In this document: positions 4,073 to 9,070 of the stretch, one piece after another
How the letters are laid out: the number at the start of each line of letters is the position of its first letter
How positions within the stretch are numbered: the first letter of the stretch is position 1
Made by a program: the position numbers and the translations under genes
Origin: Candidatus Blochmannia vicinus
GTDB lineage: Bacteria; Pseudomonadota; Gammaproteobacteria; Enterobacterales; Enterobacteriaceae
DNA: 64,000 nt
Reading direction: 5' to 3'
Assembly: GCF_023586525.1 (NCBI RefSeq)
Contig: NZ_CP097763.1
Coordinates: 62,001-126,000 of the forward strand
Notes under the pieces: generated by a model
Seen by the model: the letters and a program-made list of their open reading frames with translations, nothing else
Told to the model about the DNA's origin: nothing
The model's database searches: none

Positions 4073-5242
4073 ATGAATACTATATTACATACCCATTGTA
4101 AAAAAAAAGTGATTGTTGGAATGTCTGGGGGGGTTGATTCTTCCGTATCCGCATGGATATTATTACAACAAGGATATAAAGTAGAAGGATTATTTATGAA
4201 AAATTGGGAAGATGACGATAGTAATGAACATTGCTCATCAGCATCTGATTTATCGGATACTTATTCTGTCTGTAATCATTTGGGTATATATTTACATACC
4301 GTAAATTTTTCTAAAGAATATTGGGAAAATGTATTTCAAGTATTTTTGCAAGAATATAAAATTGGCCGCACCCCTAATCCTGACATACTCTGCAATAAAG
4401 AAATTAAATTCAAATGTTTTTTAGAATTTGCACTCAAAGATTTAGACGCAGATTTTATTGCAACTGGACATTATGTACGCCGTATTGACACCAATCAAGG
4501 AACGTGCCTAATGCGTGGTTTAGACAAAAATAAGGATCAAAGTTATTTTCTATATACACTTAGTCATACACAACTTAAACAATGTTTGTTTCCTGTAGGA
4601 ACATTAAAAAAATCACAAGTTAGAAATATCGCTAAAGAATTAAACTTAATTACAGCTAATAAAAAAGACTCTACTGGTATTTGTTTCATTGGTAAACGAA
4701 AATTTAGAAATTTTATTAGTCATTACATACCAATGCAACCAGGAATTATAATTAATATAAATGGAGATAAAATTGGAACACATCAAGGAGTATCATTTTA
4801 TACTTTAGGACAAAGAAAAGGATTAAATATAGGTGGAATCAAAAAAGGAAATGGGAAACCATGGTACGTAATAGACAAAGATATAAAAAATAATACGTTA
4901 ATCGCAGCGCAAGAACATCATCACCCGCTTCTTATGTCTACTGAATTCATTGCTAAACAAGTACAATGGATAAAAGGAAATATACTTAAGTCACCTTTAT
5001 ATTGTACAGTAAAAATTAGATACAGACACCCAGATGTTCAATGTCGTGTATATCCTATTTTTAACAATGACCTTAAAGTTGTTTTAAAAAATCCAGTATC
5101 AGCAATTACACCGGGGCAAGCAGCAGTTTTTTACTCACATGAAAATTGTTTAGGCGGCGGCATCATTGAACAAACTATTCCTTATAGCTACTTAAGCCCT
5201 AAAAATTATTACTCTTCAATAAACATAAACAATATCAATTAA
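4073..5242 (+). CDS. mnmA: tRNA-specific 2-thiouridylase MnmA
   Basis: MnmA adenylates and then thiolates U34 of tRNA-Lys, -Glu and -Gln, taking sulfur from the IscS-TusABCDE relay; tusE is also in this window. The 389 residues align with E. coli MnmA (368) along the full length. The PP-loop [11 protein letters not shown] is at about 19-29. The catalytic cysteines are in [13 protein letters not shown] and [13 protein letters not shown]. The C-terminal β-barrel motif TPGQAAVFY is present. About 20 extra residues rich in N, S and Y extend the C-terminus. In E. coli hflD separates mnmA from purB; here hflD is missing and purB follows after about 100 bp. Confidence 0.97.
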
Positions 5243-5344
5243 AAATATTTATTCAATATCATTGAACATATTAAATACTACCATAATTATAAAACTAAAT
5301 AATTATTATATTTAATGTTTAATTTCATCATGAAAGGAGAAGAA

Positions 5345-6730
5345 GTGATAAAATTATCGCCCTTAACTGTAGTATCACCTATCGATGGTCGTTACTATAA
5401 ACAAACTGATTCCTTACGTAGTATTTTTAGTGAATTCAGTCTGTTAAAATTTCGAGTACAGATTGAAATCTATTGGTTACAAAAACTAGCTCACACAACA
5501 GCTATTAAAGAAATATCTCCTTTTACACAACCCGAATATGACTTTTTAAATAAATTAGTGATTAATTTTAATATCAAAGATGCAGAACGTATTAAAGAAA
5601 TAGAACAAATTATTAAGCATGATATCAAAGCAGTAGAGTATTTCTTAAAAGAAAAAATAAGTATATTACCTAATTTAAAAAAAATAAGTGAATTTATTCA
5701 TTTTGCTTGTACTTCAGATGATATTAACAATCTTGCATATGGATTAATGCTTACTAATGCCAAAAAAACTATTTTGTTACCTATTTGGCAACAAATTATT
5801 AATGAAATTAAAAAAATGAGTATTAATTATAAAGATATTCCTTTATTATCTAGAACTCATGGACAGCCCGCTACCCCTTCTACTATTGGAAAAGAAATGG
5901 CTAACATTGCATATCGACTAATACGTCAATATAATCAATTAAAATCAATAAAAATTTTAGGTAAAATGAACGGCGCTGTAGGAAACTACAATGCTCATAC
6001 AGTAGCATACCCAGAAATAAATTGGCGTAAATTAAGCAAAGAATTTGTTATATCTTTAGGAATCGAATATAATCCATATACAACACAAATAGAACCACAT
6101 GATTATATTGCTGAATTATCCGACTGTATTACACGATTCAATACAATCTTGATAAATTTTAATAGAGATATATGGGGTTATATTTCACTCAACTATTTTA
6201 AACTATACCATAATGAAATTTCAATTGGATCATCCACTATGCCACACAAAGTAAATCCTATAGACTTTGAAAAGTCTGAAGGAAACCTAGGATTAGCAAA
6301 CGCCATATTTAATCATTTTTCTGAGAAGTTACCAATATCACGTTGGCAACGCGATTTAAGCGATTCAACCGTCCTAAGAAGCTTAGGAATGGCTATAGGA
6401 TACGCTTTAATCTCCTACCATAGCGTACTAAAAGGCATAAAAACATTAATAGTTAATAAAGAATACATATTAAGTGAATTAAATAGACATTGGATAGTAT
6501 TAAGCGAAGCTATTCAAACGGTTATGAGACGGCATAATATTCATAAATCTTATGAAGATACAAAAAAATTTATCAGCAGTACAGATATTAATCCTGAAAA
6601 AATAAAAATTTTTATTGAATCACTACCATTACCAGCAACAGAAAAAATACGTTTACAAAAATTGACTCCAACCAATTACATAGGTTTAGCAGCAGAAATG
6701 GCAAATGAAATTGATGATGTAACATCATGA
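5345..6730 (+). CDS. purB: Adenylosuccinate lyase
   Basis: PurB acts twice in purine synthesis, splitting SAICAR to AICAR and adenylosuccinate to AMP, each time releasing fumarate. From the GTG at 5345 the product is 461 residues (E. coli 456). That start is preferred because AAAGGAGA lies just upstream and the translation then begins like the E. coli protein (IKLSPLTVVSPIDGRY). An in-frame ATG at 5315 would add 10 residues. Superfamily motifs are HFACTSDDINN, SRTHGQPATPS and the signature GSSTMPHKVNPIDFE. The last 22 codons lie in the left arm of a perfect 132-bp palindrome centred on the stop codon, giving a slightly extended C-terminus (NEIDDVTS) compared with E. coli. Confidence 0.97.
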   Translation: MIKLSPLTVVSPIDGRYYKQTDSLRSIFSEFSLLKFRVQIEIYWLQKLAHTTAIKEISPFTQPEYDFLNKLVINFNIKDAERIKEIEQIIKHDIKAVEYFLKEKISILPNLKKISEFIHFACTSDDINNLAYGLMLTNAKKTILLPIWQQIINEIKKMSINYKDIPLLSRTHGQPATPSTIGKEMANIAYRLIRQYNQLKSIKILGKMNGAVGNYNAHTVAYPEINWRKLSKEFVISLGIEYNPYTTQIEPHDYIAELSDCITRFNTILINFNRDIWGYISLNYFKLYHNEISIGSSTMPHKVNPIDFEKSEGNLGLANAIFNHFSEKLPISRWQRDLSDSTVLRSLGMAIGYALISYHSVLKGIKTLIVNKEYILSELNRHWIVLSEAIQTVMRRHNIHKSYEDTKKFISSTDINPEKIKIFIESLPLPATEKIRLQKLTPTNYIGLAAEMANEIDDVTS

Positions 6731-6793
6731 TGTTACATCATCAATTTCATTTGCCATTTCTGCTGCTAAACCTATGTAATTGGTTGGAGTCAA
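6662..6793. repeat. Perfect 132-bp palindrome at the purB stop codon
   Basis: Bases 6662-6727 and 6728-6793 are exact reverse complements: 66-bp arms, no spacer and no mismatch. I checked this base by base. The left arm is the last 66 coding bases of purB and the centre is immediately before the TGA stop. The right arm is therefore an inverted copy of the purB end. The transcript would fold into an extremely long hairpin. There is no T-run after the right arm (AAATAAAAATAAAT follows), so it is not a classical intrinsic terminator. It may be a template-switch duplication, a processing element or an assembly artefact. Confidence 0.97.
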
Positions 6794-7119
6794 AAATAAA
6801 AATAAATATTTTAACTCACACATTAAATTAAGTTACCAAAATGGAATCTACTGCATTGCGCTAACAGTGTTATTTTCATTTTATAAATAATATATTTTAT
6901 AAAAATTTATTTATATACCATGAGTTTGAAATATTAAACGCTACTCAATATAACATTGATATACCATATCAAAACTGTCAAAATTATAAATATTAGAAAC
7001 CTACATTCTATTATCTACAATTGATGTTTATATTTTTATTTATTTATAACTCAACTATATTATTAAACAAATTATTCAAAATCTTTTGCTCTAGCAAAAG
7101 ATCACAAATTTTCAATTTC
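6794..7119. other. Convergent intergenic region purB/lolE
   Basis: These 326 bp lie between the palindrome and the 3' end of lolE. They contain a compact terminator-like hairpin for the lolE side (7081-7102, listed separately). The rest is featureless A/T-rich sequence. Confidence 0.5.
7081..7102 (-). terminator. Intrinsic terminator-like hairpin after lolE
   Basis: ATCTTTTGC (7081-7089) and GCAAAAGAT (7094-7102) are exact inverted repeats around a 4-nt loop. Read on the minus strand, the stem is followed by TTTTGAATAATTTG, a weak T-rich tail. It lies about 18 bp past the lolE stop codon, as expected for the terminator of the lolCDE run. Confidence 0.6.
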
Positions 7120-8358
7120 TCATTTTAACATTTTATATAAATCAAATTTTTCTGTTTTTAATACCGTATACCAACTAGTAACTATCCCGAGTAATAATGT
7201 TATACCTAAAACCGATAATACATCCCACCCATTTAATTTAACAGGTAAAAAATTAATAAAATAAATTCCTTGTGACAAAATCTTACTTCCCAAAAAATCG
7301 TTACAAATTGTAATTAAACTTGTTAAGTTAAAAGAAACAAAAACACCTAATCCGGTTCCTATAACACCAGAAATAATATAAATAATTAACCCATACCAGA
7401 AAAATATACGTCTAATTAAAATATTTTGACCTCCTAATGCACAAATTAGCGCAATATCATAATTTTTATCTTTTATTGATAAAATAAGCGTAGCAATTAC
7501 GTTAAAACAAGAGATACTCATCATCAATATCATTGATAAATATACAATTACACGAACCATTTGAATATCTCTATAAATATACCCATAGGTATCCATCCAG
7601 CTTCTTACATAAACCTGACGATTAATTATTTTTTCAATTTTATGTACTATTTTATTAGCAGAAAAAATATCATTAATTTTAATAGCTATTCCTGTAATAT
7701 CTGATTTTTTATCATATAAATGTTGTATATCCAATAAAGACATTATAGCAATATTGTAGTCTAATTGACTACTCAAATTTAATATACCAGCCACTTGTAA
7801 ACGAATTTTTTTAGATGATAACAATTTATTATCTATACGAAAATTATGAGCAATTAAAATAGTGATCCAATCACCTACTTTAATTCCTAGCGCATCCGAT
7901 ATTCCTTTTCCTAAAATAATCTGTTCCGTATTTTCATAAAAATATTTCCAAGAAAAATCTTTCTCTATAAAATAAGATAATATATTTTTATCTACGTTTT
8001 TCATTAAATCTATACTTTTAACGTAAACCACGTGCCATTTATTATTAAATTCAACAACTCCAGAAAAATTAATATAAGGAGTTACACAAATAATTTCTGG
8101 CATTTGACAAATACACTTCGAAACCTCAGACCAATCGATAAATGACTCACTAACCGACTCAATTTCTACGTGCGGAACAATCGCCAAAATACGATGACTT
8201 AATTCATATTTAAACCCATTAATTGCGCTTAATGCAATTATAGATATTGCTATTCCTATAGTAATACTAATAATAGCAATTAAAGATACTAAAGATATCA
8301 GAATATTATTATTCGCACCGCGATGAAATTTTAAAGCAATTTGTAAAGATAATATCAT
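7120..8358 (-). CDS. lolE: Lipoprotein-releasing ABC transporter permease LolE
   Basis: LolE is one of the two inner-membrane subunits of LolCDE, which extracts mature outer-membrane lipoproteins and hands them to LolA. The 412 residues align with E. coli LolE (414). The N-terminal span (about 20-45) ends in SAINGFKYELSHRILAIVPH. A large periplasmic domain follows, then three C-terminal spans of the FtsX type. LolE-like signatures are SWMDTYGYIYRDIQMVR and IYFINFLPVKL. It is the last gene of a lolC-lolD-lolE unit, 28 bp after lolD, and is followed by a hairpin. The assignment as LolE rather than LolC rests on gene order and on motif matches. Confidence 0.96.
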   Translation of the reverse strand: MILSLQIALKFHRGANNNILISLVSLIAIISITIGIAISIIALSAINGFKYELSHRILAIVPHVEIESVSESFIDWSEVSKCICQMPEIICVTPYINFSGVVEFNNKWHVVYVKSIDLMKNVDKNILSYFIEKDFSWKYFYENTEQIILGKGISDALGIKVGDWITILIAHNFRIDNKLLSSKKIRLQVAGILNLSSQLDYNIAIMSLLDIQHLYDKKSDITGIAIKINDIFSANKIVHKIEKIINRQVYVRSWMDTYGYIYRDIQMVRVIVYLSMILMMSISCFNVIATLILSIKDKNYDIALICALGGQNILIRRIFFWYGLIIYIISGVIGTGLGVFVSFNLTSLITICNDFLGSKILSQGIYFINFLPVKLNGWDVLSVLGITLLLGIVTSWYTVLKTEKFDLYKMLK

Positions 8359-8386
8359 TTTAAAACAATTACCTAAACGAATTATC

Positions 8387-9070
8387 CTATGTTAATATTA
8401 TTTGACCATCAGATATCGTTAATATTCTATGACATTTCTTAGCCAAATCTAAATCATGAGTTGCAATTAAAAAAGTTGTTCCATAATGAATATTTAATGT
8501 TTTTAATAATTGAAAAATATTACTTGAATTTTCTTCGTCTAAATTTCCAGTAGGTTCATCGGCCAGCACTAAAGCTGGATTATTTATTATAGCTCGTGCT
8601 ATAGCTACTCTCTGACTTTCTCCTCCAGATAATTCGTTTGGAAAAAAATGAATACGATTCTCTAAACCAACTAATTTTAATATACATCGTGCTTTATTTT
8701 TCGCTTGACTAAATCCAGTACCTCCAATCAATAATGGCATCGCTACATTTTCTAAAATATCAAAATCTAATAATAAATGATGAAATTGGTAAATAAAACC
8801 TAAACGTTTATTACGTATCATAGCGCGCGCATTATCAGATAATTTATGTAATGCATATCCTTCAAAGAATATCTCACCTGCAGTTGGTTTATCTAATCCC
8901 CCGAGTAAATGTAACAATGTACTTTTACCAGACCCAGACATCCCCACAACAGCAATAATCTCCTTAGGTTGTATACTTAAAGTAATATGATTCAACACTT
9001 TGATTAAAAACCCAGCACGACGATAATATTTCGTCAATTGAGCACAATATAATAATGGAATATCAACCAT
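8387..9070 (-). CDS. lolD: Lipoprotein-releasing ABC transporter ATPase LolD
   Basis: LolD powers release of lipoproteins from the inner membrane by LolCE. From the ATG at 9070 the product is 227 residues (E. coli 233). Visible are Walker [10 protein letters not shown], the LolD-typical [25 protein letters not shown], signature LSGGESQR, Walker [14 protein letters not shown] and the switch His in ATHD. Starting at 9070 gives an 8-bp overlap with the lolC stop, typical of translational coupling, and an N-terminus like that of E. coli ([16 protein letters not shown]). An in-frame start at 9106 would add 12 residues that overlap lolC and have no counterpart. Confidence 0.96.

Follow-up and report, generated by a model that had tools for sequence, protein, structure and literature searches.

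The window analysed here is a 64,000-nucleotide stretch of the Candidatus Blochmannia vicinus chromosome (NZ_CP097763.1, positions 62,001 to 126,000 of the forward strand). On its plus strand lies an open frame of 471 amino acids (5315–6730) that ends in DDVTS followed by TGA and is 63–92% identical to its relatives over seven aligned proteins; we take it to be purB, following the label given in the preliminary description. The final 66 coding bases of this frame (6662–6727, plus strand) form the left arm of a 132-bp perfect palindrome at 6662–6793. The right arm (6728–6793) follows with a spacer of 0 nt and is the exact reverse complement of the left; it opens with the purB TGA stop at 6728 and, except for this codon, lies beyond the purB coding sequence. 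These arms of 66 nt, 100% complementary, agree with the preliminary description, which had reported a perfect palindrome of this exact extent with its second half starting at the stop codon. The palindrome divides into three parts: a 23-pair core common to both closest relatives (6705–6750; perfect here and in genome G012, with the inner 20 pairs perfect in genome G010); 43 bp of purB (6662–6704, plus strand) that are copied in an extension found only in the B. vicinus genome; and the corresponding 43-bp extension of the right arm (6751–6793), which stands in place of ~120–130 bp of other sequence in the relatives. Similarity to the downstream sequence of G010 resumes immediately afterwards, at AAATAAAAATAAATATT (6794–6810, plus strand). 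Further on, a convergent neighbour frame of 412 amino acids occupies the minus strand (7120–8358) and is a putative lolE, a label also taken from the preliminary description. A tRNA scan of positions 5000–9000 of the window found none.

An inverted pair of this length and quality is far beyond chance, as three first-order Markov controls of 364 kb of the same genome gave longest arms of only 12, 12 and 13 (spacer up to 8). A listing of inverted pairs in the window (arms of at least 24 nt, no more than 2000 nt apart) contained 22 others, with arms of 24–59 nt and complementarity of 71–85%. The 778,501-bp single-contig genome has this sequence at a single site, and the 132-bp palindrome is confirmed as a real feature of the assembly. 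Palindromy alone would favour a mobile or repeated palindromic element, such as a REP or MITE-like sequence, inserted at the purB end; its arms, however, are purB coding sequence, it is present once where REP and MITE elements are expected in several copies, and it matches no Rfam family at gathering score. We regard such an insertion as highly improbable and, given the single copy, rejected it. A known RNA family was likewise rejected: a search of Rfam 15 with the palindrome returned 25 matches at E values up to 1, none of which reached gathering score and most of which were to microRNA models that fit any long hairpin.

We compared the locus among 14 genomes of the genus, B. vicinus included, in which the closest relatives are G010 and G012 (PurB 92% and 90% identical to that of B. 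vicinus, respectively). Perfect palindromes with the same centre are present in all three, with arms of 66 (B. vicinus), 20 (G010) and 23 (G012) bases, i.e. 132, 40 and 46 bp in total. In the remaining 11 of the 14 genomes, no perfect arm longer than 9 was found within ~1 kb of the purB end (spacer up to 3), and these 11 non-carrier loci (~4.4 kb each) hold a single stem overall (L015:31-83; arms of at least 12, spacer up to 8), ~1.4 kb away. The three carriers group together as a single clade (support 99/98 for DNA, 80/83 for protein), within which B. vicinus pairs with G010 (92/92 for DNA, 84/88 for protein), indicating that the short palindrome is older than the long one. If this reading is right, the locus displays three stages of a palindrome whose arms change in step: 11 genomes lack it, two carry a short form and one the long form. 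A single recent event, as first proposed for this DNA, does not accommodate the 40–46 bp palindrome at the same point in the two closest relatives. The short inverted repeat ACATCA/TGATGT, named at the same time as a possible seed of a template switch, is an incomplete account of the starting point, since a palindrome with ~23-bp arms was already present. The suspicion of an assembly artefact is similarly narrowed: it is unlikely for the core, because three separate genomes carry it, and now concerns the outer 43 bp, which are found in the B. vicinus genome only.

The core has changed between these species in mirror fashion. With 23 pairs in each of three species, 67 of 69 core cells pair (97.1%), as compared to 26–57% when the structure is slid out of its true register. 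Sixteen pairs are invariant, 2 outer pairs are broken in G010, and 5 have changed on both sides, each change between species being mirrored on the other arm as in concerted evolution; in none of the 23 pairs has a one-sided change preserved pairing, and there is no G-U cell in the three species. The covariation score was reached by 1 of 500 shuffles, for an alignment of three sequences and with shuffles that ignore relatedness. One of the mirrored changes involves the end of the gene itself: the relatives read TAA then TTA where B. vicinus reads TCA then TGA (6725–6730, plus strand; the pair of alignment columns 42 and 45), and this mirrored change from A/T to C/G means that the old stop became a serine codon and a new stop was made.

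Mirrored changes of this sort would be ordinary compensatory substitutions if the stem had been born by template switching and then maintained without mismatch by selection on an RNA hairpin, acting in termination or in protection of the mRNA 3′ end between convergent genes. Several features of the locus are in keeping with this: the purB and neighbour frames do converge, folding prediction gives a single long hairpin for the RNA (−110.3 kcal/mol, with 0 of 200 shuffles as low), a putative RNase III substrate according to the preliminary description, and on the minus strand, where an intrinsic terminator is possible, TTTTTGTA comes after the stem. Moreover, the authors who described palindromes in this genus argued that only selection keeps them from decaying (Williams and Wernegreen 2010, PMC3017870, in its accessible portions). 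On the other side, a terminator scan of positions 6500–7200 found no terminator-like site, the plus strand has no T-rich run after the stem, G-U pairs are missing from the core, and hairpin function leaves 66 bp unexplained where 20 would suffice. We consider selection on the RNA an unlikely explanation for the upkeep of the stem, although a more credible one than the other alternatives weighed in this study.

Perfect stems are numerous elsewhere in these genomes. With spacers of up to 8, the surveyed stretches contain 39 (B. vicinus; G000:C1:62001-426000, 364 kb), 29 (G010) and 46 (G012) perfect stems of at least 16 bp, and 24, 19 and 24, respectively, of at least 20 bp. As a yardstick, 80 purB loci of other bacteria among the matches listed (574,399 bp, GC-richer at 0.51) contain 6 stems of at least 16 bp and 0 of at least 20 bp. 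Each of 37 perfect B. vicinus stems was compared with both relatives (74 comparisons): in 24 the counterpart was changed yet still perfect, in 5 it was identical and in 7 imperfect, while 37 showed no stem scoring 12 or more and 1 had an unrelated stem. In the 29 perfect comparisons, the arms differ at 71 of 568 aligned positions (12.5%), near the divergence of their flanks (609 of 4390 positions or 13.9%, from 36 comparisons that partly overlap with these), which counts against selection on the RNA. Because the choice of perfect stems makes all arm differences mirrored by definition, we place the weight on the rarity of imperfect stems. Of the 91 stems scoring 18 or more in the three genomes, 80 are free of mismatches; the remaining 11 have theirs no more than 9 pairs from the loop. 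Stems with scores of at least 14 contain 35 mismatches, of which 4 are G-T, 10 A-C and 21 of neither kind, again at odds with selection on the RNA. A count by transcript strand found no isolated mismatch in 110 stems and 2490 pairs, a figure biased by the preselection of stems for 10 perfect inner pairs. When the full arms of the B. vicinus stems were instead forced into alignment with the relatives by MAFFT, which kept 36 of the 74 comparisons and dropped both purB rows among others, 62 mirrored pairs stood against 19 G-T, 16 A-C and 36 other broken pairs, decayed ends and misalignment included.

The positions of the stems bear on their possible function. Stem midpoints fall within 100 nt of a gene 3′ end in 31 of 96 cases, as compared to 18.7 expected (3 of 2000 simulations as high), and near gene 5′ ends at the expected rate (19 versus 20.2). 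This enrichment at 3′ ends without enrichment at 5′ ends suggests that some stems probably serve at transcript ends; it favours selection on the RNA, and counts against a purely mutational process, which predicts none. The 39 B. vicinus stems comprise 7 between convergent, 19 between tandem and 8 between divergent genes and 5 inside frames, close to the intergenic base shares (13,646 convergent, 51,152 tandem and 26,751 divergent), where gene positions are uncurated open frames of at least 80 amino acids, so that RNA and short genes are missed and calls inside frames may err. The 8 of 39 stems at divergent genes, together with the expected rate at 5′ ends, count against selection on the RNA. 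T-rich tails were present at 41 of 96 stems, counted without a control and given no weight. Two individual stems also stood out. At G000:C1:418450-418499, a GC-rich palindrome of 50 bp lies inside a predicted frame, and its versions in G010 and G012 are 40 bp long, with a central pair that differs in each species. At G000:C1:133965-134023, a stem between convergent genes has arms that differ from those of G010 at 10 of 28 aligned positions, and both stems are perfect.

Growth of the purB palindrome by 43 bp per arm is seen in the B. vicinus genome alone. Before similarity resumes, the relatives carry 121 bp (G010, counted from the end of its 20-bp arm) or 131 bp (G012) of other sequence; B. 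vicinus is without these ~120–130 bp of downstream sequence, and similarity resumes at 6794. Two signatures of template switching are thus found together: an exact reverse-complement copy of adjacent sequence, located at an older palindrome of 40–46 bp, and a return to the original template with the intervening sequence lost or replaced. One fold-back at the old palindrome, copying 43 bases of purB and rejoining downstream, would give the present end state.

Outside the window, the same genome contains an inverted triplication (C1:237557-239798) whose 760-bp unit takes in the upstream sequence and part of what is presumably an mqo-like gene. It creates a 1526-bp perfect palindrome at 238302-239827 and turns at a 52-bp palindrome and at a 15-bp inverted repeat; the region is single-copy in G010 and G012. 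We read this triplication as a second footprint of template switching in the same genome.

The outer 43 bp per arm could alternatively be an assembly or amplification artefact, a fold-back chimera over a true palindrome of 40–46 bp. Their restriction to the B. vicinus genome would fit, as would the presence in the same assembly of the 1526-bp palindrome, in a region that is single-copy in both relatives; long palindromes of B. vafer are also reported to have impaired Sanger sequencing and Velvet assembly, in the accessible portions of PMC3017870. A simple inserted chimera, however, would not be accompanied by loss of the relatives’ downstream sequence and would not rejoin at a homologous point, true palindromes of 64–136 bp are reported in B. 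vafer in the same portions of that paper, and the B. vicinus genome is one contig of closed size with a completeness of 99.99. An artefactual extension is, in our estimate, improbable.

The apparent orientation of replication accords less well with template switching. All eight 8-kb bins of the window have negative plus-strand GC skew (−0.016 to −0.222); if the leading strand is G-rich, this points to the plus strand as the lagging one at purB. Past about C1:244000-322000 the skew becomes positive, which may mark a region where replication switches; the genus is not known to carry dnaA. Template switching in E. coli is said to favour the leading strand (PMC8794818, in its accessible portions), so with the plus strand probably lagging, template switching does not fit neatly at this locus.

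Long palindromes are cut by SbcCD. Across the genus, no SbcC was detected in any of 14 genomes by a search that was positive in 14 of 14 control genomes, and SbcD was undetected in 14 of 14 by a search positive in 13 of 14 controls; this agrees with the earlier suggestion that the host may lack palindrome surveillance. RecA was similarly undetected in 14 of 14 genomes (14 of 14 controls positive). In E. coli, loss of exonuclease I raises quasipalindrome mutation, and exonuclease VII has also been linked to it. All but one of the 14 genomes contain the C-terminal family of exonuclease I, and we rejected loss of this enzyme as the cause of the palindromes. XseA fell below the cut-off in all 14 genomes (3 weak matches, at 17–18 bits against a cut-off of 180), so that exonuclease VII is possibly missing.

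Together, these studies lead us to favour, with some confidence, replication template switching as the process that created the purB palindrome, re-copies it and extended it in a lineage without SbcCD. A template-switch origin had been proposed from the window alone, and the mirrored core, the 43-bp copy and the downstream loss with rejoining all agree with it. In the common ancestor of the three carriers, a nascent strand would have folded back at the purB end and copied ~23 bases as their reverse complement. Changes arising in one arm, which are seen mirrored today, would then have been copied repeatedly to the other arm by further fold-backs, leaving each species with a near-perfect but differently spelled stem. 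In B. vicinus, whose present end state is described above, a further fold-back may have reached 43 bases deeper into purB and rejoined downstream, giving arms of 66 bp at the cost of ~120–130 bp. The long palindrome may survive for want of the SbcC and SbcD that we failed to detect, and it could have a side role as the 3′-end hairpin of purB and its convergent neighbour.

Some observations count against template switching: mirrored pairs do not outnumber one-sided or broken pairs in the MAFFT-forced alignments, 37 of 74 stem comparisons found no stem in the relative, and exonuclease I is kept in 13 of 14 genomes. The pair statistics for purB are also thin, as the palindrome is present in three species only. 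More tentatively, and with slightly less conviction than an even chance would warrant, we propose that in Blochmannia, where neither SbcCD nor RecA was detected, replication acts as a standing copy-correction for hairpin arms in general: stems would change nearly as fast as their flanks yet keep almost perfect pairing, since every change is copied to the opposite arm. Were this true, covarying substitutions would arise without RNA function, and in genomes of this type covariation would be weaker evidence that an RNA is functional. If our reading of the locus is right, whether stems keep perfect pairing through selection or through copying becomes testable, and the locus would show the fate of palindromes in a bacterial lineage that lost SbcCD.

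The purB palindrome is a real sequence feature of a known kind whose history is unusually clear. Contrary to the initial view that no known element type fits, the accessible portions of Williams and Wernegreen 2010 (PMC3017870) report long palindromes of 62–136 bp in all in three Blochmannia genomes (20 in B. floridanus, 10 in B. vafer and 6 in B. pennsylvanicus), all but two of them at least partly intergenic, and define them as inverted repeats of 30–1000 bp with a gap of no more than 20 and no more than 3 mismatches. The purB palindrome, with 66-bp arms, no gap and no mismatch, falls within that definition, and resembles those described in its genus of origin, its total of 132 bp and its half-intergenic position. 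By contrast, the same portions of that paper do not mention purB or set the arms of different species side by side, and they favour selection, whereas the arms here change in mirror fashion and have grown in one species. In a search confined to open-access papers, without preprints, we found nothing joining Blochmannia with ‘template switch’, and recognised no arm-by-arm comparison in titles and abstracts.

Parallels from other systems, again drawn from the accessible portions of each source, place the proposed process in context. In the template-switch mutations of RNA stems (Monttinen and Loytynoja 2022, PMC8794818), perfect stems are likewise born in one event and kept by copying from arm to arm; those are mostly short stems of RNA genes, whereas here the stem is 66 bp long and overlaps the 3′ end of a protein-coding gene, in a bacterium where neither SbcCD nor RecA was detected. 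The coding palindromes of nematomorph mitochondria (PMC6649704) share long perfect inverted repeats, a small genome midpoints common to different species and concerted evolution of their arms, and template switching has been proposed for them; they are mitochondrial and lie inside coding sequence, whereas the purB palindrome is on a bacterial chromosome and extends across a stop codon. In E. coli, quasipalindrome template-switch mutation (PMC7202029) similarly perfects imperfect inverted repeats by fold-back copying, in an 18-bp reporter and over laboratory time as compared to arms of 20–66 bp and the divergence of species here. The mqo triplication, which is separate from the purB palindrome, resembles a small inverted triplication (PMC13334657) in its DUP/INV/DUP form and in its turning points at inverted repeats, with units of 760 bp as compared to about 150 bp. 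To these systems the present analysis adds a history in three stages at a single locus, changes mirrored between arms, and paired arms that diverge almost as neutral sequence would.
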